This document shows positions 34,256 through 45,802 of a DNA stretch of 64,000 nucleotides, piece after piece. The notes below the pieces were generated by a model. That model was not told the origin of the DNA and ran no database searches. It saw only the letters and a list, made by a program, of their open reading frames with translations. The position numbers and the translations under genes were made by a program. How positions within the stretch are numbered: the stretch's first letter is position 1; every line of letters starts with the position of its first letter. The DNA comes from Bradyrhizobium sp. CCBAU 53351 (GTDB lineage: Bacteria; Pseudomonadota; Alphaproteobacteria; Rhizobiales; Xanthobacteraceae). The stretch is from positions 682,001 through 746,000 of the forward strand of contig NZ_CP030059.1 of assembly GCF_015291745.1 (NCBI RefSeq). Reading direction: 5' to 3'.

Positions 34256-35140
34256 CTACAGCGACGGCGTGAGTGACGTTTTCAGCAGTGTCAGCAGCGC
34301 CTGCACCGCGGCGGCATTGCGCCGACGCTCGGGGATCGCGGCCTTCACCCATAATTCCGGAATCGGAAAGTCGCGCAGCACCGGCTTCAACGTCCCGTCG
34401 CGCAGGGCGTCGGCGACGAGATAATGCGAGAGTAGCGCGATGCCGTTGCCGGCGACGGCGCTGCGCGCCAGCACGTGTCCCTCGTTGGAGGAGAGCAGCG
34501 GGCTGACCTGGATGCTGATGCGGCCGCGCGGTCCGTCGAACACCCATTCCGGTCCGGTCGGCAGGAAGCTGAGGCAGCGATGCTCGACCAGATCGCGCGG
34601 ATGCTTCGGCGTGCCGTGTTTCTTCAGATAGGCCGGCGAAGCGCAGAGCAGCCGCTTCAGCGCACAAAGCGGCTCATCGACCACGCCGCCGAAGGAATGC
34701 GGGAAGGCGCCGATGGCAATGTCGAACCCTTCGGTGACCGGATCGACCGGGCGATCGATCAGCACGATATCGAGCTTCAGCCGCGGGTTCTGGGTCTGGA
34801 ACGCGCTGAAGGCGTCCGCGAGCCGCGCCACCGTGAGCGAGGTCGGGGCCTTGATGCGGAGGTGATCGACGAGGTCGTGGCCCTTCTCGCCCATGCGCGA
34901 GAGCAGGTCGGTCGCATCGGTGACGACGCCGCGGGCGCGGTGCACGTAGCGCTGCCCGGCTTCGGTCAGCCGCAATTGCCGGGTCGAGCGGTGAAACAGC
35001 AGCGTGCCGATCCGCGCCTCCAGCTGCGTGACGCGTTTTGCGACCACCGAGGTCGAGACCCCCAGCTTTCGCGCGGCGGCGGAGAAGCCGGCGGCATCGG
35101 CAGTGGCTAGGAAGGCCTGCAGGTTCACGAGGATGTCCAT
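34256..35140 (-). CDS. LysR-type transcriptional regulator
   Basis: 294 aa. N-terminal DNA-binding domain AFLATADAAGFSAAARKLGV, followed by VVAKRVTQLEARIGTLLFHR; effector domain with FDIAIGAFPHSFGG and VLARSAVAGNGIALLSHYLV. Divergent from the FAD oxidoreductase/ABC operon, with 111 nt between; it is the likely regulator of that operon. Confidence 0.9.
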   Translation of the reverse strand: MDILVNLQAFLATADAAGFSAAARKLGVSTSVVAKRVTQLEARIGTLLFHRSTRQLRLTEAGQRYVHRARGVVTDATDLLSRMGEKGHDLVDHLRIKAPTSLTVARLADAFSAFQTQNPRLKLDIVLIDRPVDPVTEGFDIAIGAFPHSFGGVVDEPLCALKRLLCASPAYLKKHGTPKHPRDLVEHRCLSFLPTGPEWVFDGPRGRISIQVSPLLSSNEGHVLARSAVAGNGIALLSHYLVADALRDGTLKPVLRDFPIPELWVKAAIPERRRNAAAVQALLTLLKTSLTPSL

Positions 35141-35251
35141 CTCGACCTTTCTCGATTCGCGTAAGCTGATCGCGTATTTTGGTAGATTGTAGCCCGCTGC
35201 GCGTTAATTCATAGTCGCCCCAAGCAAAGGAAATTCGGGAAGGGACGCGCC

Positions 35252-36619
35252 ATGCGGGCCACGACGATCGAAGAACCGGCACGCCAGGTGCCGCTCTATG
35301 GCGAATATGAAGTCGTCGTGCTCGGCGGCGGTCCCGCCGGCATCGTCGCGGCGGCTTCAGCTGCGCGGGCCGGGCGGAAGACGCTGCTGATCGAGCGCTA
35401 CGGCTTCCTCGGCGGCATGGGCACGGCGGCCGGCGTCACCAATTTCTGCGGCTTACATGGCAATGTCCATGGCGAGCACCGGCGGCTGGTGCAGGGCATG
35501 GCGTCCGAGCTGCTGGCGCGGATCGATCGGCTGGGTGGCCTCAACACGCCGCACCTGATTCTCGGCAAGGTGTTCGCCCAGGCCTACGACACCGCTGCCT
35601 ACAAGATCGCGGCCGACGAGCTGCTCGCCAGCCACAAGGTGCACATCCTCTTCCATGCGCTCGGCGCCGGTGTCGTGATGAGCGATGACAGCCGTATCGA
35701 CGCGCTGATGGTCGAGACCAAGGCCGGCCGCCAGGCGGTGCGATCTGAGATCTTCATCGATTGCTCCGGCGACGGCGACCTCGCGGTGTGGGCCGGCGCG
35801 CCCTTCGAGATCGGCGACGCGGACGGTCATCCGCTCTATCCCTCGATGATGCTGCGTCTCAACGGCATCGATCCCGAAAGGGCGGGCGACGCCTGGCGTA
35901 CCATCCCGCAATTAATGGAGAAGGCGACCGCGGCCGGCACGCACACATTCCCGCGGAAAAGCGCGATCGTGCGGCCGCAAAAATCCGGCATCGAATGGCG
36001 GGTGAATTTCACGCAGGTGGCGCGCGAGGACGGTCACGCCATCAACGGCGTTGAGCCCGACGATCTCACCCGCGGCGAGATCGAGGGCCGCAAGCAGGCG
36101 CTCGCCGCATACGCGTTTTTGCGCAGCACTGTGCCGGGCTTTGAAAAGTCCTACATCGTCGATTTGCCGCCGCAGCTCGGCATCCGCGAGACCCGTCGCG
36201 TCACGGGCGGCTACCAGCTCAGCGGCGAGGACGTACTCGGCTGTGCCTCGTTTACGGATTCCATCGGCGTCAATGGCTGGCCGATCGAGGCCCATGTTCC
36301 CGGCGATGTCGTCTTCACCTTCCCGCCGATCCCGGAATCGCGTGGCTATAACGAGTTGCCCTACCGGATGCTGGTCCCCGAGGGCGTCGACAACCTGCTC
36401 GTCGCCGGCCGCTGCGCCTCCATGACCCATGAGGGCCAGTCGGCGGCGCGGGTCTCCGGTGCCTGTTTCGTGATGGGGGAGGCTGCCGGTTCCGCCGCCG
36501 CGCTGGCGCTCTCCGGAAACCGGATCCCACGCGAAATCCCCATTGAAAAGTTGCAGGAAACGTTGAAACAACAGGGCGCCTTCATCGGCCGGGACCAGGC
36601 GCTGCCTGAAGGTTTGTGA
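35252..36619 (+). CDS. FAD-dependent oxidoreductase (FAD_oxidored family)
   Basis: 455 aa. FAD-binding motif EVVVLGGGPAGIVAAASAARAG (shown here in part; Gly-rich loop about 25-31), LLIERYGFLGGMGTAAGV, FIDCSGDGDLAVWAGAPFE, and the C-terminal second FAD contact LLVAGRCASMTHEGQSAARV. The PGFEKSYIVDLPPQLGIRET stretch is typical of this family, whose members often act on unusual organic substrates. First of four co-directional genes; it probably oxidises what the following importer brings in. Confidence 0.85.
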   Translation: MRATTIEEPARQVPLYGEYEVVVLGGGPAGIVAAASAARAGRKTLLIERYGFLGGMGTAAGVTNFCGLHGNVHGEHRRLVQGMASELLARIDRLGGLNTPHLILGKVFAQAYDTAAYKIAADELLASHKVHILFHALGAGVVMSDDSRIDALMVETKAGRQAVRSEIFIDCSGDGDLAVWAGAPFEIGDADGHPLYPSMMLRLNGIDPERAGDAWRTIPQLMEKATAAGTHTFPRKSAIVRPQKSGIEWRVNFTQVAREDGHAINGVEPDDLTRGEIEGRKQALAAYAFLRSTVPGFEKSYIVDLPPQLGIRETRRVTGGYQLSGEDVLGCASFTDSIGVNGWPIEAHVPGDVVFTFPPIPESRGYNELPYRMLVPEGVDNLLVAGRCASMTHEGQSAARVSGACFVMGEAAGSAAALALSGNRIPREIPIEKLQETLKQQGAFIGRDQALPEGL

Positions 36620-36666
36620 CGGGCTTGCAATAGAACGACCAAGACAACGACGGCGGAGGAAACGGG

Positions 36667-37671
36667 ATGATCGGGATGGTGCGGCTCGCGCTTGCGGGTC
36701 TTCTGGCGATCACGGCGATTGGCACGGCGCGGGCCGAGGACGCGTTGAAGGCCAGGATCGGCGTGCTGCGCCTGTCCTCCTCCGCGCCGGTCTTCATCGC
36801 GCAGGACAAGGGCTATTTCCGCGAGGCCGGCTTAGAGGTCGAGCTGAAATTCTTCGACGCGGCCCAGCCGATCGCGGTCGCGACGACCTCGGGCGACGTC
36901 GATTTCGGCATCACCGCCTTCACCGCGGGTCTCTATAACCTTGCCGGCAAGGGCACGCTGAAGGTGATCGGCGGCATGAGCCGCGAGAAAGCCGGCTATC
37001 CCCTGATCGGCTATTTCGCCAGCAACAACGCTTACGCCGCCGGGCTGAAGACGCCGAAGGACCTCGCGGGAAAACGCGTGGCGATGACGCAGGTCGGATC
37101 GAGCTTTCACTATTCGCTCGGCCTGCTCGCCGACAAATACGGCTTCAAGCTCGCGGACGTGAAGATCGTGCCGCTGCAATCGCTGTCGAATGCGGCCGCC
37201 GCGCTGAAGGGCGAGACCGTCGATGCCGCGCTGCTGCCGATCTCCACCGCGCGCAAGCTGATGGACGAGGGCGGCGCGAAATTTTTGGGCTGGGTCGGCG
37301 ACGAGACGCCCTGGCAGCTGGGCGCGGTGTTCGCCTCGCCGAAAACGCTGACCAACAAGGCGCTGGTGACGAAGCTGCTCGGCGCGCTCGCCAAGGCCGA
37401 CCGCGAATATCACGACGTCATCCTCGCCGCGATGAAGGACGGCGTCGCGCCCATCAACGACAAGACGAAACCGCTCCTGGAGATCATCGCCAAGTATACC
37501 AACCTGCCGGTCGAGCAGGTGGTCGGCAATTGCGCCTATATCGACCCCGACGGCAAGCTGGATGTGAAGAACGTCGACAACCAGATCAAATGGCTGCAGG
37601 AGCAGGGTTTTGCCGACAAGGGTTTTGACGCGGAGGCGATCATCGCCAAGGACTATGTGAAGGCGGATTGA
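36667..37671 (+). CDS. NitT/TauT-family ABC transporter substrate-binding protein
   Basis: 334 aa periplasmic receptor. Signal peptide ends ARAE. Mature start ARIGVLRLSSSAPVFIAQDK followed by GYFREAGLEVELKFFD; further family segments are GDVDFGITAFTAGLYNLAGK and DLAGKRVAMTQVGS. The start is supported by GGAGGAAACGGG before ATG 36667. With the ATPase and permease genes downstream it forms a complete importer. The ligand is probably a small organic sulfonate, pyrimidine-like or carboxylate compound; not determinable. Confidence 0.87.
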   Translation: MIGMVRLALAGLLAITAIGTARAEDALKARIGVLRLSSSAPVFIAQDKGYFREAGLEVELKFFDAAQPIAVATTSGDVDFGITAFTAGLYNLAGKGTLKVIGGMSREKAGYPLIGYFASNNAYAAGLKTPKDLAGKRVAMTQVGSSFHYSLGLLADKYGFKLADVKIVPLQSLSNAAAALKGETVDAALLPISTARKLMDEGGAKFLGWVGDETPWQLGAVFASPKTLTNKALVTKLLGALAKADREYHDVILAAMKDGVAPINDKTKPLLEIIAKYTNLPVEQVVGNCAYIDPDGKLDVKNVDNQIKWLQEQGFADKGFDAEAIIAKDYVKAD

Positions 37672-37687
37672 GAGCAGAAACCAGTTC

Positions 37688-38461
37688 ATGGACCTGATCG
37701 CCAGCCACATCACCCACCGCTTCGGCGATCTCGCCGTGCTCGACGATGTCTCCTTCACCGTCGGCGCCGGCGAGGTGGTGGCGATCGTGGGGCCTTCCGG
37801 CTGCGGCAAGAGCACGCTGCTGTCGATCCTCGGCGGACTGTTGCAGCCGACCTCCGGCGCGCCCGAACTCCGGGGCTCGCCGCCGGCGGACAGCCTCAAT
37901 CCGCTGACCTTCGTGTTCCAGGACTTTGCGCTGCTGCCCTGGGCGACGGTGGAGGAGAATGTCGAATTCCCGCTGCTGCACACCCAGCTTTCGGCCGTGC
38001 AGCGACGCGCGCTGGTCGAGGACGCCTTGCGCCGCACGACGCTGACTGATTTCCGTAAAGCCTATCCGAAACAGCTTTCCGGCGGCATGCGCCAGCGCGT
38101 CGGCATTTCGCGCGCGCTCGCAGTCAAGCCGGCCATCCTGCTGATGGACGAGCCGCTGTCGGCGCTGGATTCGCAGACCCGCGAATTGCTGATGGAGGAT
38201 TTCGTCCGCCTGCTCGCCGATGGCGGCATGGGCGCGGTCTACGTCACCCACAATCTCGAAGAGGCGGCGCGGCTCGCCGACCGCATCGTGGTGCTGTCGC
38301 GCAGGCCCGGCCGCATCCGCGAGGTCGTGACCGTGCCGATGACGCGCGCTGCGCGCGGGGAGGCTGAAGCGCGCGAAAAGCTTCCGGCGCTGCAGAACCA
38401 GATCTGGTCGCTGATCCGCAACGAGGCGATCGACGCCGAGCGCGAGGTCCAGCATGCTTGA
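37688..38461 (+). CDS. ABC transporter ATP-binding protein (NitT/TauT type)
   Basis: 257 aa. Walker A VGPSGCGKSTLL (about 37-48), Q-loop FVFQDFALLPWA, signature LSGGMRQRVGISRAL, Walker B ILLMDEPLSALD, switch His in YVTHNLEEA. All catalytic motifs are intact. It is followed by a permease gene overlapping by 8 nt. Confidence 0.93.
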   Translation: MDLIASHITHRFGDLAVLDDVSFTVGAGEVVAIVGPSGCGKSTLLSILGGLLQPTSGAPELRGSPPADSLNPLTFVFQDFALLPWATVEENVEFPLLHTQLSAVQRRALVEDALRRTTLTDFRKAYPKQLSGGMRQRVGISRALAVKPAILLMDEPLSALDSQTRELLMEDFVRLLADGGMGAVYVTHNLEEAARLADRIVVLSRRPGRIREVVTVPMTRAARGEAEAREKLPALQNQIWSLIRNEAIDAEREVQHA

Positions 38462-39275
38462 TCGCGCGCCGGCCGAAATTGCGAAAGACGCTGCAACCCG
38501 GCGCGTCCGCTTCCGCGGCGCCGGCTTCGTGCCGGCATCGAGCCGCTACGGCGGCTGGATCGCGCTCGCGATCGTCATCGCGATCTGGCAGGCCGCAGGC
38601 AGCGCCGGCCTCGTCAATGCGCTGTTTCTGCCGACACCCGCCGCGATTGTCCGTGCGATCTATCAGCTCGCGATCTCCGGCGCGCTCTGGCAGCATCTGT
38701 CGGCCTCGCTGCTGCGCATCGGCGTAGGCTGGCTGCTCGGCACGGCGGCGGGCGTCGCTGTGGGCTTTGCCATCGGCCTGTCCAGGCTGGCGCGCAGCGT
38801 TGGCATCACCTTCATCTCGGCGCTGTTCCCGATCCCGAAGATCGCGCTGCTGCCGCTGCTCATTCTTTGGCTCGGCATCGGCGAAGAGCCGAAGATCGCG
38901 ACGATTGCGCTCGGGGTGTTCTTCTCGACCGCGATCTCGGTCTACAGTGGCGTCGATGCGGTGCCGCGAAACCTCATCCGCATGGCGCAGAGCTTCAACG
39001 TCCCCTTCGCGACCATCGTGCGCAAGGTGATCTGGCCGGGCGCGCTGCCCGCGATCCTCGCCGGCTTTCGCATCACGGCCTCTGTCGCGCTGCTCCTCGT
39101 CGTCAGCGCCGAGATGATCGGCGCCCAATACGGCATCGGCGCCTTCGTGCTGCAGGCCGGCAATCTGATGCAGACCGATCAGCTGCTCGCGGGCGTCGTG
39201 ATCCTGTCGGTGTTCGGCCTCGCGGTCGGCAAGCTGATCGGCTGGCTGGAGGTGCGGTTGCTGCACTGGCGGTAG
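38454..39275 (+). CDS. ABC transporter permease (NitT/TauT type)
   Basis: 273 aa with about six hydrophobic segments and the ATPase-contact (EAA) loop near RMAQSFNVPFATIVRKVIWPG. ALFPIPKIALLPLLILWLGI precedes GEEPKIATIALGVFF. It overlaps the ATPase gene by 8 nt and ends the oxidoreductase-importer operon. Confidence 0.92.
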   Translation: MLDRAPAEIAKDAATRRVRFRGAGFVPASSRYGGWIALAIVIAIWQAAGSAGLVNALFLPTPAAIVRAIYQLAISGALWQHLSASLLRIGVGWLLGTAAGVAVGFAIGLSRLARSVGITFISALFPIPKIALLPLLILWLGIGEEPKIATIALGVFFSTAISVYSGVDAVPRNLIRMAQSFNVPFATIVRKVIWPGALPAILAGFRITASVALLLVVSAEMIGAQYGIGAFVLQAGNLMQTDQLLAGVVILSVFGLAVGKLIGWLEVRLLHWR

Positions 39276-39351: not shown

Positions 39352-40392
39352 TCACGCGTTGCCGCGATCTTCCCTGAACAGATCCAGCTTCTGCTGCACC
39401 GGCCGGTCCGAGAAGCTGAACAGCACGGCATCCTCATCCGCCTCATGCGTGACCCAGTGCCAGCTCGGCACCACGAACAGATCGCGCGGGCCCCATTCGA
39501 ACACGGTATCGCCGATGCGGCTGCGGCCCTTGCCCTCAATCGGGCAGAACACCGTCGCATCCGTCGAACGATAGCGCGCGGTCTTGAAGCCCTTCGGCAG
39601 CAGCTGGATGAAGGTGCCGATGGTCGGCATCGCGAAATCGCCGGTCTCGGGGTTGCTGAACTTCAGCTTCAGCCCGTGGCAGGCGTCCCACTCCTGGCTC
39701 GTTCGAGCCTTCTCCAGTGCCTCACGCGTGTAGGCATAGGGATAGCTGAAGATCGGCGAGGTCTTCGAGCTCCGCTTCACATCGACCGGCAGCAGATTGT
39801 GGCCGTAGCGCGCAAAGCTGTCGCCCGCGGGTCTTGTGATCTTCTGCTGGTCCTCTTTCGATCCCTCGGCGAAGGAGCAGTCGAAGAACTGCACCAGCGG
39901 AATGTCGAGGCCGTCGAGCCAGAACATCGGCTCGTTGGTTTCGTTGGAATGATCGTGCCAGGTCATCGATGGCGTGATGATGAAATCGCCCGGCTCCATC
40001 GCGGTGCGCTCGCCGTCCACGGCGGTGTGGGCGCCCTTGCCTTCGAGCACGAAGCGCAGCGCCGACTGGCTGTGCCGGTGCGCCGGTGCGACGTCGCCGG
40101 GCACCACCATCTGCACGCCGGCATAGAGTGAGGTCGTGATCTTGGACTGGCCGCGCAGGCCGGGGTTCTCCAGCACCAGCACGCGGCGCTCGGCTTCCTT
40201 GGCGGTGATCAGCTTGCCGGCCTCGATCATGTAGTCGCGGATGACGTCGAATTGCCAGAGATGCGGCCGGCAGGCGCTCTTCGGCTCCGGCGTGATCAGA
40301 TCGCTCATCACCGTCCACAGCGCGGTGAGGTTCTCGCCGTCGATCTTCTTGTAGAAGGCCTCGCGCTCCGGCGTCTTGGTCACGGCTTCCAT
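39352..40392 (-). CDS. Gentisate 1,2-dioxygenase
   Basis: 346 aa bicupin ring-cleavage enzyme that opens gentisate to maleylpyruvate using Fe(II). N-terminal cupin with metal triad His105/His107 (APAHRHSQSALRFVLEGKG) and His146 (TPSMTWHDHSN). The second cupin (VFCPIEGKGRSRIGDTVFEW, LFVVPSWHWVTHEAD) lacks a full triad, as in the family. Very close relatives can be salicylate 1,2-dioxygenases, so direct salicylate cleavage is an alternative. Divergent from the isomerase-MarR pair; a candidate MarR box begins 25 nt upstream of the start. Confidence 0.9.
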   Translation of the reverse strand: MEAVTKTPEREAFYKKIDGENLTALWTVMSDLITPEPKSACRPHLWQFDVIRDYMIEAGKLITAKEAERRVLVLENPGLRGQSKITTSLYAGVQMVVPGDVAPAHRHSQSALRFVLEGKGAHTAVDGERTAMEPGDFIITPSMTWHDHSNETNEPMFWLDGLDIPLVQFFDCSFAEGSKEDQQKITRPAGDSFARYGHNLLPVDVKRSSKTSPIFSYPYAYTREALEKARTSQEWDACHGLKLKFSNPETGDFAMPTIGTFIQLLPKGFKTARYRSTDATVFCPIEGKGRSRIGDTVFEWGPRDLFVVPSWHWVTHEADEDAVLFSFSDRPVQQKLDLFREDRGNA

Positions 40393-40417
40393 GGCGGCGC
40401 TCCCGTTCGTTTTGTTG

Positions 40418-40442
40418 ATTGACAGTATACTGACGATCTAGG
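40418..40442. promoter_or_regulatory. Candidate MarR operator, copy 1 (ATTGACAGTATACT...ATCTAGG)
   Basis: Contains the perfect palindrome CAGTATACTG (40423-40432). It matches the box at 44459-44483 at 23 of 25 positions. It lies between the divergent gentisate dioxygenase and maleylpyruvate isomerase genes. On the minus strand TATACT also resembles a -10 element, so binding there would block the promoter. Confidence 0.7.
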
Positions 40443-40505
40443 TAGCGTCAATGCGAGGGACGGCGTACAAGGCCCCAAAATGACCGAGGATATAGGGAGG
40501 TCCCA

Positions 40506-41138
40506 ATGAAGCTGCACGGCTATTTCCGCTCCAGCGCCGCCTATCGGGTGCGGATCGCGTTGAACCTCAAGGGCCTCAAGGCCGCGCACTTGCCGCATCA
40601 TTTGCGCAAGGGCGAGCAATGTGCGCCCGCTTATCTCGCCATCAACCCGCAAGGCCTCGTGCCGGCGCTGGAGAACGATGGCGGTGCTGTGCTGACACAA
40701 TCGGTCGCGATCATCGAATGGCTCGACGAGACGCACCCCAATCCGCCGCTGCTGCCGAAAGATGCACTGCGGCGCGCCAAGGTGCGGGCGTTCGCCCTGG
40801 CGATCGCCTGCGACACCCATCCGGTGCAGAACCTGAAAGTGCTGGCGCGGCTTCGCGAACTCGGTCTGGCCGAAGAGAAGGTCCAGGAGTGGGCCGCCTG
40901 GGTCAACCGCGAAGGGCTGTCGGCCTGCGAGACGCTGATCAAGGACGAGCCGGGGCCGTTCTGCTTCGGCAATGCGCCGACGCTGGCCGATCTCTGCCTG
41001 GTGCCGCAGCTCGCCAATGCGCGCCGCTTCGGCGTCGATGTCTCGGCCTATCCGCGCCTGCTCAAAGCGGAGACCGCGGCCAAGGGGCTGGCGGCGTTCG
41101 CCGAGGCCGCACCGGAGAAGCAGCCCGATGCCGAGTAA
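40506..41138 (+). CDS. Maleylpyruvate (maleylacetoacetate-type) isomerase, GST zeta family
   Basis: 210 aa cytoplasmic glutathione-dependent cis-trans isomerase. N-terminal thioredoxin-like domain KLHGYFRSSAAYRVRIALNL, with the zeta-class SSxxxRVRIAL motif, INPQGLVPALE and LTQSVAIIEWLDE; the helical domain contains NLKVLARLRE and PTLADLCLVPQLANARRFG. Beside gentisate dioxygenase it should convert maleylpyruvate to fumarylpyruvate. Strong RBS GGGAGG. Its last 11 nt overlap the MarR gene. Confidence 0.88.
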   Translation: MKLHGYFRSSAAYRVRIALNLKGLKAAHLPHHLRKGEQCAPAYLAINPQGLVPALENDGGAVLTQSVAIIEWLDETHPNPPLLPKDALRRAKVRAFALAIACDTHPVQNLKVLARLRELGLAEEKVQEWAAWVNREGLSACETLIKDEPGPFCFGNAPTLADLCLVPQLANARRFGVDVSAYPRLLKAETAAKGLAAFAEAAPEKQPDAE

Positions 41139-41640
41139 GCCGCCTCCTCCGATCACGATCGATGCGGTCTATGCCGCGCCGGGCTATCTGTTCCGGCGCA
41201 TGCAGCAGATCGCGGTTTCGATCTTCATGGAGGAGTGCAAGGCGTTCGACCTGACCCCGGTGCAATATGCCGCGCTGATCGCGATCCACACCCATCCCGG
41301 CATCGACGCCACACGGCTGTCGGCGGTGATCGCCTTCGACCGCTCCACGCTCGGCAGCGTGATCGAGCGGCTGCAGGCCAAGGACTTTGTCGAGCGCAAG
41401 CCGGCGCCCGAGGACAAGCGGATCAAGCTGCTCTACCTGACCAAATCAGGCGCCGCGATCCTGCGCGAGATCATTCCCGCCGTCGAGCGTGCCCAGGCGC
41501 GCATGCTGGAGCCGCTCAAGCCGGCCGACCGCAAGACGCTGATGGCGTTGATGTCGCAGCTCGTCGACCTCAATAACGAGGCCTCGCGCGTGCCGTTGCG
41601 GGCGGAAGATGCGCTGGAGCATCTGGGGAGGGGTGGGTGA
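41128..41640 (+). CDS. MarR-family transcriptional regulator
   Basis: 170 aa from ATG 41128, which overlaps the isomerase stop by 11 nt; GGAGAAG precedes it. Winged helix core: LTPVQYAALIAIHTHPGIDA, LSAVIAFDRSTLGSVIERLQ, DFVERKPAPEDKRIKLLYLT. Longer open frames run through the isomerase gene and are shadows. It is the natural candidate for binding the two matching boxes at 40418 and 44459 and for sensing an aromatic acid or its CoA ester (inference). Confidence 0.88.
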   Translation: MPSKPPPPITIDAVYAAPGYLFRRMQQIAVSIFMEECKAFDLTPVQYAALIAIHTHPGIDATRLSAVIAFDRSTLGSVIERLQAKDFVERKPAPEDKRIKLLYLTKSGAAILREIIPAVERAQARMLEPLKPADRKTLMALMSQLVDLNNEASRVPLRAEDALEHLGRGG

Positions 41641-41694
41641 GGGGACGACAGCGAGAGTGTGGTGACGCGGTTGCTTCACATCCTCAACGTCGTC

Positions 41695-43308
41695 TCACAT
41701 CCTCAACAACGCCTGCCGATCGATCTTCCCCGTGCCGGTCTTCGGCAGCTCGTCGGTGAAGATCACTTCGCGCGGATATTTGTAGGGCAGCAGCTTGCCC
41801 TTCACATAGTCCTGCAGCCGCCGCGTCGCGTCGCCCTGGTTGACCGTGCGGTTGTTCATCACCACCACGGCCTTCAGCGTCATCCGGCGGTCCGGCAGCT
41901 CGGCGGCGAACACCGCGCATTCGCGGATCTCGGGGTGGTCGGCGAGGCACAGCTCGACCTCGAGCGGATAGACCCATTGGCCGGAAATCTTGATGAGATC
42001 ATCGGCGCGGCCGCGGAAGAAGTGGAAGCCGTCGGCATCCCTGACGAAACGATCGCCGGTGTAGATCCAGCCACCCTCGCGGATGGTCTCGGCGGATTTG
42101 TCCGGCCGGTTCCAGTACAGCGGCGTGTTGGAATCGCCGCGCACCCACAAAATGCCTTCCTCGTTGTCGGCGACGTCGCGGCCGTCCTTGTCGCGCAGCG
42201 CGACCTCGTAGCCGGGCACGCGCAGGCCTGCGGCACCGAGCTTCTTCTGCTCGGGCCGGTTGGAGAGATAGATGTGCAGCACCTCGGTGGAGCCGAGGCC
42301 TTCGACGATCTCGAGGCCGGTGAGCGTCTTCCAGCCGTTGAAGACCTCGGCCGAGAGCACCTCGGCGGCGGAGAGCGCCATGCGCAATGACAAGAAGTCG
42401 GTCTTGTCCGCGCCGTCAGCCTTGGTCAGCGACGTATAGAGCGTCGGCAGGCCGAAGAAGACCGTCGGCCTGTACTGCGCGATCGCCGCGAAGATCGACG
42501 CGGGCTTCGGCTGGCCCGGCAGCAGCAGCGTCGCCGCGCCCGCCGAGAACGGGAAGGTGACGGAGTTGCCGAAGCCATAAGCGAAGAAGATTTTCGGCAC
42601 GGAGAAGCAGATGTCGTCAGGCGTCAGCTTCAGCACGCTCTGCGCGAAGGCGGCCTCGCTATAGGCCATGTCGTGCTGGAGATGCACGATGCCCTTGGGC
42701 CGTCCGGTCGACCCCGAGGAATACATCCAGAACGCCATCTCGTTGCGCTGCGTGGGGGCTTCGGCCAGCTCGGCCGGCAATTGTGCGAGCCAGTCTGCCG
42801 CCGCAACCGCTTTCGGCGCCGCATGGTCGCGCACCTCGCCATTGACGACGATCAGCGTATCCAGCTTCGTGTCCTTGCAAGCTTCCGCATTGAAGCGCGA
42901 GCAGAACTCGGACTCCGCCACCGCAACTTCAGCCCCGGAATCGGCGAGATAGAATTGCAAGAGGTCCGGCGGCGTCAGCGTGTTGATCAGGAGCGGCACG
43001 AAGCCGGCGCGCACCGCGCCGAAGAACGCGGCCGGATAGGCCGGGGTGTCGTCGAGGAACAGCAGCACGCGGTCGCCGCGCTTCAGGCCGAGCGAAGCCA
43101 GGCCGTTGCCCCAGCGGCAGGCGTCCGCGCAGAGCTCGCCATAGGTCCGCGTGCCCGCGGGGCCCAACAGCGCGAGCTTGTCGCCACGGCCCTTGCCGAG
43201 ATTGTCGAATAGGACGCGGCTGGCGTTGTAAAGTTCCGGAACGGCAAAGCCGATCTCGCGTGCCCCCGCGCTGTCGGCGGGCACCTGGTCGAAAATCTCG
43301 TTGCTCAT
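41695..43308 (-). CDS. Benzoate-CoA ligase family protein (probable salicylate/aryl-CoA ligase)
   Basis: 537 aa AMP-forming ligase. The start is ATG 43308, overlapping the upstream stop as ATGA. AMP motif MYSSGSTGRPKGIVHLQHDM (about 197), the benzoate-ligase-type segments VPKIFFAYGFGNSVTFPFSA and GLPTLYTSLTKADGADK, GWIYTGDRFVRDADGFHFFR, and the C-terminal catalytic Lys in LPKTGTGKIDRQALL. It is coupled to an aryl-CoA hydroxylase-like gene, and gentisate genes lie 1.3 kb away. The likely reaction is salicylate (or a related benzoate) to its CoA ester. Confidence 0.88.
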   Translation of the reverse strand: MSNEIFDQVPADSAGAREIGFAVPELYNASRVLFDNLGKGRGDKLALLGPAGTRTYGELCADACRWGNGLASLGLKRGDRVLLFLDDTPAYPAAFFGAVRAGFVPLLINTLTPPDLLQFYLADSGAEVAVAESEFCSRFNAEACKDTKLDTLIVVNGEVRDHAAPKAVAAADWLAQLPAELAEAPTQRNEMAFWMYSSGSTGRPKGIVHLQHDMAYSEAAFAQSVLKLTPDDICFSVPKIFFAYGFGNSVTFPFSAGAATLLLPGQPKPASIFAAIAQYRPTVFFGLPTLYTSLTKADGADKTDFLSLRMALSAAEVLSAEVFNGWKTLTGLEIVEGLGSTEVLHIYLSNRPEQKKLGAAGLRVPGYEVALRDKDGRDVADNEEGILWVRGDSNTPLYWNRPDKSAETIREGGWIYTGDRFVRDADGFHFFRGRADDLIKISGQWVYPLEVELCLADHPEIRECAVFAAELPDRRMTLKAVVVMNNRTVNQGDATRRLQDYVKGKLLPYKYPREVIFTDELPKTGTGKIDRQALLRM

Positions 43309-44444
43309 GCCTCGTCTCCGCCGTTCTTGGCGGCCTCGTAGCGGGCCATGAAGGCCGGGGACATGTGGCGCAGGCGTGCATCGTCGATGCGGCCGGAGCG
43401 CGTGATGTAGCTGTAGGCGAAGTCCATCAGGTCGAGCTGCATGTGCTGGGCAAAATGCTCGTACCAGAAGGCGCTGGTGCGCGCGGCGTTGACGAGCTTC
43501 TGCACCACCGGTTTTCGCGCCGCCTGGTAACGATGCAACGCGGTCGACAGGTGCGCATCCGATTCCAGCGCCTTGACCAGCGCAATGGCGTCCTCGATGG
43601 CGAGCCGCGTGCCCGAGCCGATCGAGAAATGCGCGGAGTGCAGGGCATCGCCGAGCAGCACCATGTTCTTGAACGACCAGTGCTCGTTCCAGACCCAGGG
43701 GAAGTTGCGCCAGACCGATTTGTTGGAGACCAGCGAGCGGCCGCCGAGCGTGTCGGCGAACACTTCCTCGCAGACGCCCTTGGACTGCTCGACGTCCTTG
43801 TAGGCGAAGCCATAGGCCTGCCACGTCGCGTGATCGCATTCGACCAGGAAGGTGCTCATGGTCGGCGAGTACCGGTAGTGATGGGCGTTGAAGGCGCCGC
43901 GGTCGGTCTTCACGAAGGTTTGCGACAGCGTGTCGAAGCGCTTCGAGGTGCCGTACCAGACGAACTTGTTGGAGGAATAGGACAGCGAGGTGCCGAAATC
44001 GCCTTCGAAGGCGCGGCGCACCAGTGAGTTCAAGCCGTCGGCGGCGACGATCAAATCGTGGCCATTGAGCTGGTCGATGGTGTGGATCTGCGTGTCGAAG
44101 CGCGGCGTGACGCCGACGCCGAGCGCGCGCTGCTGCAGGAATCTCAGCAGTTCCAGCCGTCCGATCGAGGAGAAGCCGACGCCGTCGATGGCGACGCTGT
44201 CGCCGCCGAGGTTCAGCGTGATGTTCTCCCAGCTCTCCATATGCGGCGCGATCGCGTCGACCGTCTCGGGGTCGTCGGCGCGCAGGAATTCCAGCGCCTG
44301 GTCGGAGAACACGACGCCAAAGCCCCAGGTCGCGTCGGCCGGGTTCTGTTCGAACAGGTCGACTTGATCCTCGGGGTGGCGCTTCTTCCAGAGATAGGCG
44401 AAGTAGAGCCCACCGGGCCCACCGCCAATCACGGCGATCCGCAA
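43305..44444 (-). CDS. FAD monooxygenase, salicylyl-CoA 5-hydroxylase (SdgC)-like
   Basis: 379 aa flavoprotein. FAD motif IAVIGGGPGGLYFAYLWKK at the N terminus, LFEQNPADATWGFGVVFSD, the mid-protein DLIVAADGLNSLVRRAFEGD, and the second FAD contact VLLGDALHSAHFSIGSGTRL. This is the aryl-CoA hydroxylase type also found as the N-terminal part of 2-aminobenzoyl-CoA monooxygenase. In the known salicylate pathway of Streptomyces, SdgC hydroxylates salicylyl-CoA at C5 before gentisate forms. Start is TTG 44444, fixed by GGGAGG six nt upstream and by the immediate FAD motif. The coupled ligase gene overlaps it by 4 nt. Confidence 0.84.
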   Translation of the reverse strand: MRIAVIGGGPGGLYFAYLWKKRHPEDQVDLFEQNPADATWGFGVVFSDQALEFLRADDPETVDAIAPHMESWENITLNLGGDSVAIDGVGFSSIGRLELLRFLQQRALGVGVTPRFDTQIHTIDQLNGHDLIVAADGLNSLVRRAFEGDFGTSLSYSSNKFVWYGTSKRFDTLSQTFVKTDRGAFNAHHYRYSPTMSTFLVECDHATWQAYGFAYKDVEQSKGVCEEVFADTLGGRSLVSNKSVWRNFPWVWNEHWSFKNMVLLGDALHSAHFSIGSGTRLAIEDAIALVKALESDAHLSTALHRYQAARKPVVQKLVNAARTSAFWYEHFAQHMQLDLMDFAYSYITRSGRIDDARLRHMSPAFMARYEAAKNGGDEA

Positions 44445-44458
44445 CGTCTGCCTCCCTA

Positions 44459-44483
44459 ATTGACAGTATACTTACTATCTAGG
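44459..44483. promoter_or_regulatory. Candidate MarR operator, copy 2
   Basis: Same 25-nt box as at 40418-40442 with two differences. It lies 14 nt upstream of the hydroxylase TTG start and in the same orientation relative to the controlled minus-strand gene. On the minus strand TATACT would serve as the -10 element, giving a very short leader. Confidence 0.7.
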
Positions 44484-44633
44484 GGTAGACTAATGTGCTC
44501 CGGCGTCCGGCGCCAGCGGAATTATCCGCCGGCGCGGGCGCGCCGAAACTCATTATCGGACGCACGTTTTGCGCGCATCCGAACCGTCAGGGCGGAATCA
44601 TAGCCAAACCGCGCCGGCTTGGCTATTCGCGCA

Positions 44634-44849
44634 TCAGACGCAGCGCTTCACATAGACCCCGTTCACCAGCACCCTGGTGCAGCGGACCACCGGAACCGGC
44701 TTGCGAACCACGACGGCCGCGTTCGGCCCGGCGCAGCCGGCGCGATAGACCCCGCGGGCGCACACCACCGCATTGGCGTCGGTGGCATCAAAGGTCATGG
44801 TCGCTCCGAAGGCGAGCAGCGCAGAAGCAACGAGCAGCAATGTACGCAT
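44634..44849 (-). CDS. Small secreted cysteine-containing protein
   Basis: 71 aa from ATG 44849 with GGGAGGACAAC upstream. A signal peptide (MRTLLLVASALLAFGA...) ends near ANAVV. The mature part is rich in Val and Arg and has four cysteines (VVCARGVYRAGCAGP, VVRCTRVLVNG, KRCV). Similar short proteins are frequent in Bradyrhizobium-like genomes; function unknown. Confidence 0.72.
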   Translation of the reverse strand: MRTLLLVASALLAFGATMTFDATDANAVVCARGVYRAGCAGPNAAVVVRKPVPVVRCTRVLVNGVYVKRCV

Positions 44850-44959
44850 GTTGTCCTCCCGGTCTTGTCGTGATCGAAATCGGACGCCTGAAAAAGATTT
44901 GTCGTTGCAGGCGTGCGGCGAATTCATCCACCGCACGCCGCTCATCGTTGCGTGCCGCC

Positions 44960-45802
44960 TTATCGCGCGGCAAAGGGTGCCAGCACGTCCCTGCACGCCG
45001 GCGAAAGCGATGCGGCATTGCTGGCGAGGCATTGCATGATGCGGCCGGCGCCGACCTCGACGCCGGCGCAAATCGCGCGGATGTCGGCGCCACAGGCCGA
45101 TCGAGCTACGAACAGTTCTTCGCGCGGCCGCATCGGGCGCAGCACCAGCACGGTGGGGGCTGCGGCAGGCGCTGCCGCCGCACCCGCCGCCGGCGCAGCG
45201 GTGGTCGCCGCGCCGCCGCCGGTTGCGGCGCTCACGGCCTTCTCGCAGGCCGGCGAGACCTTGGCCTTGTTCTTCTCCAGGCATTCGAGCGCTGGCGCGC
45301 CGCCCGGCGGCACGCTGGCGCAGACCTTGGGATAATCGCCGCGGCATGAGCTCTTGATCGCAGCAAGTTGCGCGCTGCTCGGCTGCTTGGGTGCAGCGGT
45401 CTTCGGCGCCGGCGGTGCAGCGGCCGGCTTTGCAGCGGGCGCCGATTCAGCCTTCGGCGCGGCAGGTGTCGGCGCCGGCTCCGCTTTGGGAGCCGCTTCG
45501 GTCTTCGGCGCAGCGGCGGGAGCGGCTTCGGGCTTCGCAGCCGCGGGCGGCGCGATCGCGCGAACCGCGGTCTGGCATCCACCCGAGAGGCTCGACATGT
45601 TCTTCTGCAGACATTGAAACGCTTCGGTGCCGCCGGGCGTCACGCTCGAACAGTGCGCCATGAAGTCGGAGCGGCACGCGGACCGGATGGCGCTCTTCTG
45701 GGCCTCGGTCGGCGCCTGCGCGAATGCGCCTGCTGCAGTTGCGAACAGTGCCGCCGCCAGCAACGCCGTGCGCGTTGAGACATGTTTCAACGTATTGAAC
45801 AT
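44960..45802 (-). CDS. Secreted protein with three cysteine-rich (GLG1-like) repeats
   Basis: 280 aa from ATG 45802 (MFNTLKHVSTRTALL); the upstream extension to 45847 is less likely. A signal peptide ends GAFAQ. Three units of the pattern C-x3-(D)-x3-C-x8-G-x5-C-L-x6-L/V-S-x2-C are visible: ACRSDFMAHC...QCLQKN...GC, SCRGDYPKVC...ECLEKN...AC, and ACGADIRAIC...QCLASN...AC. They are separated by long Ala/Pro/Lys-rich linkers (about 100-155 and 205-232). Four Cys per unit suggests two disulfides each, so an extracytoplasmic location. Role unknown. Confidence 0.8.
   Translation of the reverse strand: MFNTLKHVSTRTALLAAALFATAAGAFAQAPTEAQKSAIRSACRSDFMAHCSSVTPGGTEAFQCLQKNMSSLSGGCQTAVRAIAPPAAAKPEAAPAAAPKTEAAPKAEPAPTPAAPKAESAPAAKPAAAPPAPKTAAPKQPSSAQLAAIKSSCRGDYPKVCASVPPGGAPALECLEKNKAKVSPACEKAVSAATGGGAATTAAPAAGAAAAPAAAPTVLVLRPMRPREELFVARSACGADIRAICAGVEVGAGRIMQCLASNAASLSPACRDVLAPFAAR

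Follow-up and report, generated by a model that had tools for sequence, protein, structure and literature searches.

A probable gentisate-module MarR regulator and its predicted operator at a putative salicylyl-CoA operon of Bradyrhizobium

Genes at the locus

The window, i.e., the whole 64-kb stretch of Bradyrhizobium DNA analyzed here, carries five genes that the first-pass annotation had assigned to a salicylyl-CoA to gentisate set. All five were confirmed at the places given by their reading frames and their matches to NCBIfam/Pfam, and are listed below together with the two boxes and the promoter discussed later.

39352..40392, minus strand: gentisate 1,2-dioxygenase (GDO), 346 aa; TIGR02272 at 632.8 bits (cut-off 442.1); best PDB match 2d40 (E 1.6e-119)
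40418..40442, no strand assigned: box 1, a predicted binding site of MarR that covers the -10 of the GDO promoter; its 18-bp core (40419-40436) matches TTGACAGTATACTGTCAA at 16/18
40424..40451, minus strand: GDO promoter from the promoter scan, TTGACG-16-TATACT
40506..41138, plus strand: maleylpyruvate isomerase (MPI) of the glutathione-S-transferase/MaiA type; TIGR01262 at 263 bits (cut-off 171)
41128..41640, plus strand: MarR-family regulator, 170 aa; PF12802 and PF01047 (winged-helix domain present); PDB relatives 6pcp and PcaV (4fht)
41695..43308, minus strand: aryl-CoA ligase of the benzoate-CoA-ligase family; TIGR02262 at 487.7 bits (cut-off 375.25); 2v7b (E 5.5e-113)
43305..44444, minus strand: single-component FAD-dependent aryl-CoA hydroxylase that starts at TTG and is SdgC/CehH-like in its gene context
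44459..44483, no strand assigned: box 2, a predicted binding site of MarR that covers the -10 of the hydroxylase-ligase operon and matches TTGACAGTATACTGTCAA at 15/18 in its core (44460-44477)

The stop codon of the hydroxylase gene overlaps the ATG of the ligase gene by 4 nt (ATGA), and the MPI and MarR genes share 11 nt. Given these overlaps, three transcription units are likely, namely hydroxylase-ligase, GDO, and MPI-MarR. The aryl-CoA ligase gene adjoins the aryl-CoA hydroxylase gene and GDO lies at the same locus, both as expected of a CoA-dependent salicylate-to-gentisate pathway. A Shine-Dalgarno-like GGGAGG precedes the TTG start of the hydroxylase gene, and the motifs GGGPGG, DG, and GD in its product, as well as HxH in GDO, were recognized by eye. 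The best NCBIfam match of the hydroxylase (379 aa) in the profile scan was PRK08255, the bifunctional salicylyl-CoA 5-hydroxylase/oxidoreductase, with 402.6 bits against a cut-off of 1078. The match spans positions 1-382 of 768, the N-terminal half alone, and the hydroxylase is not a full-length, two-domain protein scoring above that cut-off. Its closest PDB structure is VioD (3c4a). The likeness to SdgC is drawn from gene context.

Upstream of GDO (window 34256-39275), we observed genes for a LysR regulator, an FAD-dependent oxidoreductase, and an NMT1/SsuA-type ABC transporter (binding protein, ATPase, and permease). The permease of this type adjoins GDO at many Bradyrhizobium loci also, and uptake of an aromatic acid is a possible function of the transporter.

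Two boxes and a predicted operator

The first-pass annotation had noted two 25-nt boxes, identical at 23/25 positions, just upstream of the two minus-strand units (GDO and hydroxylase-ligase), and direct comparison bore out both the identity and the positions. The core of box 2 stops 15 nt upstream of the hydroxylase start codon, and box 1 also lies between divergent units, with GDO to the left and MPI-MarR to the right. A third copy was absent from the 8.34-Mb genome with up to 3 mismatches allowed, leaving two copies in all, and 100 shuffles of the window gave 0 box matches; these two results rule out chance as the origin of the box. On the minus strand of both boxes, TATACT fits a -10 element. 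The promoter scan of the window did not find a hydroxylase promoter, a good -35 being absent there.

Judged from the sequence, the box imperfectly reproduces an 18-bp palindrome, TTGACAGTATACTGTCAA, placed over the -10 element. We searched 195 sampled Bradyrhizobium genomes for the exact 13-mer TTGACAGTATACT and found it in 162/195, while the reversed-pattern control gave any hit in 10/195. The 13-mer was missing in 33/195, and all four of those inspected (G006, G015, G025, and G032) carry variants. In G089, G200, and G203, the forward and reverse 13-mers overlap with their starts 5 bp apart, so that these three genomes contain the perfect palindrome. A near-palindromic site at the target promoters, as expected of the operator of a MarR repressor, is present, being exact in three genomes and matched at 16/18 and 15/18 in the window, where the mismatches have left one arm, downstream of the -10, unchanged and the opposite arm degenerate. 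In the GDO promoters of Bradyrhizobium (61 distinct sequences), both TTGACGCTA and the AGTAT-CTGTCAAT block are conserved in at least 90% at each column shown. Among 20 fetched Bradyrhizobium loci, the box (at least 13/18) was found before the hydroxylase gene in 20/20 and before GDO in 19/19 of those containing GDO. The search for conserved synteny and the box, proposed with the first-pass annotation, thus recovered one kind of site upstream of both minus-strand units genus-wide. A one-mismatch copy of the 13-mer occurs at C1:4845455 (L187), where no related gene was seen nearby by eye; the same search with the reversed-pattern control gave 2 hits.

The box accompanies MarR, not IclR

To the set of hydroxylase loci we admitted hits of at least 300 bits that begin no more than 5 residues from the start and have at least 80 nt upstream, and identical coding sequences were dropped. 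A locus was regarded as MarR-linked when a MarR of at least 60% lay within 6 kb and as IclR-linked when an IclR lay within 3 kb; L219 was counted as MarR-linked. Among the 121 distinct loci, the box (at least 13/18) was present in 60/61 MarR-linked loci versus 0/30 IclR-linked loci, in which the highest score was 12. In shuffled sequence the score averaged 9.2, and single shuffles scored as high as 14/18. A high score by itself is therefore no proof, and more weight lies on the constant position of the box: in the 60 boxed MarR-linked loci the box ends 13-17 nt upstream of the start codon, and 15 nt upstream in 38 of them. The sole MarR-linked locus without a box at the hydroxylase gene, L219, retains both IclR and a thioesterase. 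Where neither regulator was in reach, the box was found in 5/30 loci (L001, L037, L125, L130, and L251), all of the Bradyrhizobium type and on fragments (L001 being the window's own short one) that are too short, or cut off too early by a contig end, to include a MarR; these five were put in the MarR group for the tree. Leaving out L219, a linked ligase was present at 38 loci without the box, and 29 of these had an IclR gene within 3 kb.

Outside Bradyrhizobium, we analyzed the best 17 MarR places, found in 16 of the 64 matching non-Bradyrhizobium genomes; being the top-ranking matches, they favor close relatives. In these other genera of the family, boxes were found just upstream of module genes at 15 of the 17 places, the exceptions being L234 without a box and L228 with a box solely outside the scored zones. 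In total, 24 boxes fell inside module-gene zones versus 3 outside in 225 kb, with 0.4 expected per shuffled set, and paired sites 15 bp apart occurred at 8/17 places. No hydroxylase-ligase pair was seen in the fetched stretch at 16/17 places. GDO was found at 9/17 (two of those at 34%) and a 3-hydroxybenzoate-6-hydroxylase homologue at 7/17, of which five are 82-83% identical to the gene at L042 and two are at 52-54%. On the NCBIfam model for 3-hydroxybenzoate 6-monooxygenase (cut-off 459), the L042 gene scored 573.8, L218 546, and L229 529.8. Since the box occurs at 60/61 MarR-linked versus 0/30 IclR-linked loci, and at MarR places of other genera without hydroxylase-ligase, the predicted operator is a companion of the MarR gene, not of the salicylyl-CoA genes.

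As the -10 element is part of the box, some of the conservation of the box is promoter conservation. The boxes could then be conserved promoter elements alone (a -10 or face-to-face promoters) instead of a regulator site, in agreement with the fit of TATACT to a -10 and with TTGACA, which could serve as a -35 on the other strand. An open frame on the opposite strand, 44495-45349 (+), begins 12 nt past box 2 and may be a divergent gene; it is antisense to a cysteine-rich-repeat gene and gave no match in a Pfam scan. We nevertheless consider a promoter-only origin very improbable and reject it, because the conserved block does not end with the promoter but includes GTCAA downstream of the -10, at the hydroxylase as well (59 distinct sequences), because the genome holds just two copies, and because the box tracks MarR, being found with MarR in other genera and missing at 30/30 IclR-linked hydroxylase loci.

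Predicted route and substrate of the hydroxylase

The gene set fits the order salicylate, salicylyl-CoA, gentisyl-CoA, gentisate, maleylpyruvate, and fumarylpyruvate, in support of the CoA-dependent route proposed in the first-pass annotation, and it probably degrades salicylate via the coenzyme A ester. The ligase would form salicylyl-CoA, to which the FAD hydroxylase would add a 5-hydroxyl to yield gentisyl-CoA. Gentisate would then be released by a thioesterase whose gene lies elsewhere, or by hydrolysis that occurs spontaneously. GDO would cleave the ring to give maleylpyruvate, MPI would isomerize the latter, and an unlinked hydrolase would finish the route. To call the route complete was too strong, as the thioesterase and the fumarylpyruvate hydrolase are represented in the genome by unlinked candidates only. 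Neither gene had been seen in the first-pass annotation, and likewise none was found among the listed frames of the window. At 60/61 MarR-linked loci a gentisyl-CoA thioesterase was absent within 3 kb, L219 alone having one. The best thioesterase candidate in the genome of the window is at 32%, and the fumarylpyruvate hydrolase candidates are L091 (54-55%) and L095 (45%). The idea that the box marks the missing fumarylpyruvate hydrolase was rejected, as the sites at L091 and L095 were never above 11/18; none of the 16 hydrolase-family loci scored for the box exceeded 12/18.

As for the substrate, the presence of GDO in the set implies that the product should be gentisate, which makes salicylyl-CoA the most economical substrate of the hydroxylase. 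An argument that the ligase supplies the hydroxylase comes from three lineages (G052, R. leguminosarum, and Pseudosulfitobacter) in which both are encoded in a single frame. Another aryl-CoA could also lead to gentisyl-CoA, namely 4-hydroxybenzoyl-CoA (by an NIH shift), 3-hydroxybenzoyl-CoA, or 2-aminobenzoyl-CoA (with loss of the amino group). The hydroxylase family is indeed broad (7,994/8,000 scored candidates at E <= 1e-30), and its top NCBIfam match is a two-domain enzyme with a score under the cut-off. The FFAYG and STE-x-LHI stretches of the ligase, whose residues we take to belong to the substrate pocket, are retained in agreement with benzoate-CoA ligases, and such a benzoate-like pocket leaves the ring substituent unfixed. 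The names of hydroxylase homologues in protein databases are generic and indicate no substrate, and the PDB relatives (VioD) do not decide on it. On the other hand, the presence of GDO points to gentisate as the product, a separate hydroxylase for 3-hydroxybenzoate is found at 18/61 MarR-linked loci, and the same genome has a separate paralogue, a 788-aa open frame at 39%, which is presumably the likelier aminobenzoyl-CoA enzyme. We thus regard these other substrates as rather unlikely, and salicylyl-CoA remains the preferred one. The homologues in Agrobacterium/Rhizobium (64-65%) accompany thioesterase, hydrolase, and isomerase genes.

Hydroxylase-CoA ligase fusions of 909-917 aa were observed at L181, L182, and L045; those of R. 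leguminosarum (L181) and Pseudosulfitobacter (L182) are annotated merely as benzoate-CoA ligase family. A record titled Klebsiella pneumoniae (L148, a metagenome bin) has a hydroxylase of the mostly alphaproteobacterial group and is perhaps mislabelled.

Role of the MarR regulator and its inducer

We consider it likely that GDO, MPI, and MarR form a module for the cleavage of the gentisate ring and that its putative MarR repressor also controls the salicylyl-CoA branch. In its ligand-free state, a MarR dimer would cover the -10 of both minus-strand promoters by occupying the 18-bp operator there, and a ligand, most likely gentisate, would release it from the operators. Box 1 lies between GDO and MPI-MarR, so MarR may also control itself. 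The predicted inducer is gentisate rather than salicylyl-CoA, since both branches have gentisate as an intermediate, and since MarR relatives occur in clusters without a CoA ligase, which makes a CoA ester unlikely as the ancestral signal. The alignment of MarR with PcaV and 6pcp covers an N-terminal GHLxRR-like stretch, which we assume to hold the ligand arginine.

The first-pass annotation had regarded the MarR as dedicated to the salicylate route, so that it would sense salicylate or salicylyl-CoA and exist for the salicylyl-CoA pathway. CouR, according to the available text on it, is a MarR protein that senses a CoA thioester. Moreover, no close 3-hydroxybenzoate 6-hydroxylase was found in the genome of the window (best 37%), and the MarR may here serve the salicylyl-CoA branch alone. 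This description did not hold for the sister genera, in which related MarRs with the box stand at gentisate and 3-hydroxybenzoate clusters without hydroxylase or CoA ligase, making the MarR unlikely to be a dedicated salicylate sensor. Among the best 17 places, boxed MarR relatives (60-78%) are found with eight GDO clusters in whose reach neither ligase nor hydroxylase was seen; a 3-hydroxybenzoate-6-hydroxylase homologue is present in all but one of the eight, with L218 and L229 above the NCBIfam cut-off, and the 3-hydroxybenzoate hydroxylase is still present at the 18/61 MarR-linked hydroxylase loci. Thus, we hold a dedicated salicylate system to be improbable and favor the shared gentisate module, with the reservation that a related MarR may have switched its ligand.

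A 3-hydroxybenzoate-6-hydroxylase-like gene was observed after MarR at L038 (in which it appears split into two frames), L039, L041, L042, and L052, and two routes may accordingly feed gentisate under one regulator.

History of the operon and its regulator

The hydroxylase tree contained 99 of the 121 rows, as 22 rows drawn randomly from 30 close relatives (at least 92% identical) were omitted. The boxed hydroxylases formed one side of a single branch (95/78; 98% of 200 bootstrap trees), of which the SH-aLRT of 78 is slightly under the starred level, and the IclR-linked hydroxylases surround this boxed clade. The hydroxylase-ligase operon would originally have stood beside a divergent IclR, often with a thioesterase, which is linked at 19/30 IclR-linked loci. 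At the base of Bradyrhizobium, the operon would have lost the linked IclR and thioesterase and acquired a MarR operator. The salicylyl-CoA genes thus apparently owe their control to a neighboring gene set for another aromatic acid. In its full form, we propose, with belief and doubt evenly balanced, that the salicylyl-CoA operon came under the gentisate-sensing MarR of a 3-hydroxybenzoate/gentisate module in a single event at the base of Bradyrhizobium, through the gain of one operator at the -10, and that IclR and thioesterase left the locus.

In L219 (G260), the order hydrolase-GDO-boxes-MPI-MarR lies beside ligase-hydroxylase-thioesterase-IclR, which looks like the state before the capture. 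The L219 hydroxylase clusters with that of Desertibaculum (L134), outside L126 and L141, the two closest IclR-linked outgroups, in whose fetched flanks IclR was present and no MarR was found. From this grouping, the two modules may have met more than once. If the proposed takeover is true, the product gentisate switches on the use of salicylate, with control shared with that of 3-hydroxybenzoate. The locus would then be a case of an operon swapping regulators in which before-like and after forms are found in living genomes, and it supplies a concrete predicted operator with a testable inducer.

Comparison with known systems

The salicylate genes of Rhizobium sp. X9 are reportedly named cehGHI, and the set is said to include a gentisyl-CoA thioesterase. 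CoA-dependent salicylate catabolism via salicylyl-CoA and gentisyl-CoA is reported for this strain (Zhou et al. 2021, Mol Microbiol, doi 10.1111/mmi.14771), and the alphaproteobacterial route from salicylyl-CoA via gentisyl-CoA to gentisate is the same as that at the Bradyrhizobium locus, which differs in lacking a thioesterase and in its predicted MarR control. With this route published, the pathway itself is already known. The sdg system of Streptomyces sp. WA46, as far as the available text goes, has the intermediates, the hydroxylase step, and gentisate dioxygenase in common with the Bradyrhizobium locus; its named enzymes include a salicylyl-AMP ligase as well as a probable salicylyl-CoA synthetase (PMC4600096). 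At the Bradyrhizobium locus, a separate salicylyl-AMP ligase and CoA synthetase were not found, a single gene of the benzoate-CoA-ligase family being present. The SdgC gene of one Massilia strain is described as salicylate-induced in the available text.

In the mhbRTDHI clusters of Burkholderia xenovorans LB400, a MarR-type regulator stands beside gentisate genes and is a proposed repressor, as here; the available text (PMC3572157) proposes transporter control by MhbR, predicts another operator, and does not describe a CoA branch. The IclR-linked clusters of Agrobacterium/Rhizobium (L179 and L183), with hydroxylase and ligase 64-65% and 64-66% identical to those of the Bradyrhizobium locus, respectively, have a divergent IclR, a hotdog-type thioesterase, another GDO type (33-34%), and a fumarylacetoacetate-hydrolase-family gene, and are without the box. 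No description of this MarR, its operator, or the IclR switch was found in the titles and abstract openings of the open-licence literature. What appears new here is the predicted operator, its genus-wide conservation, and the putative change of regulator.

Occurrence in Bradyrhizobium

A hydroxylase match at E <= 1e-140, a threshold at which the boxed hydroxylase and a second, IclR-linked copy are counted alike, was found in 189/195 sampled Bradyrhizobium genomes. One of the six misses, G024, has the hydroxylase gene in two pieces. Salicylate is a plant defence hormone, and the presence of this hydroxylase type in nearly all of the genomes suggests that salicylate breakdown may be a core trait of the root-associated Bradyrhizobium.

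Several loci depart from the common arrangement. The Bradyrhizobium MarR match at L203 (G378) has an in-frame TAG. The ligase gene is absent between hydroxylase and MarR at L035 (G017), L109, and L074 (G129); the two of these genomes tested, G017 and G129, have a 61% ligase elsewhere, which in G017 belongs to a cluster with IclR and a thioesterase. A second hydroxylase-ligase-GDO cluster with IclR and a thioesterase and without the box was observed at L036 (G017), L046 (G034), and L047 (G018), the last of which has, by eye, a frame like an aromatic-acid transporter between ligase and GDO.
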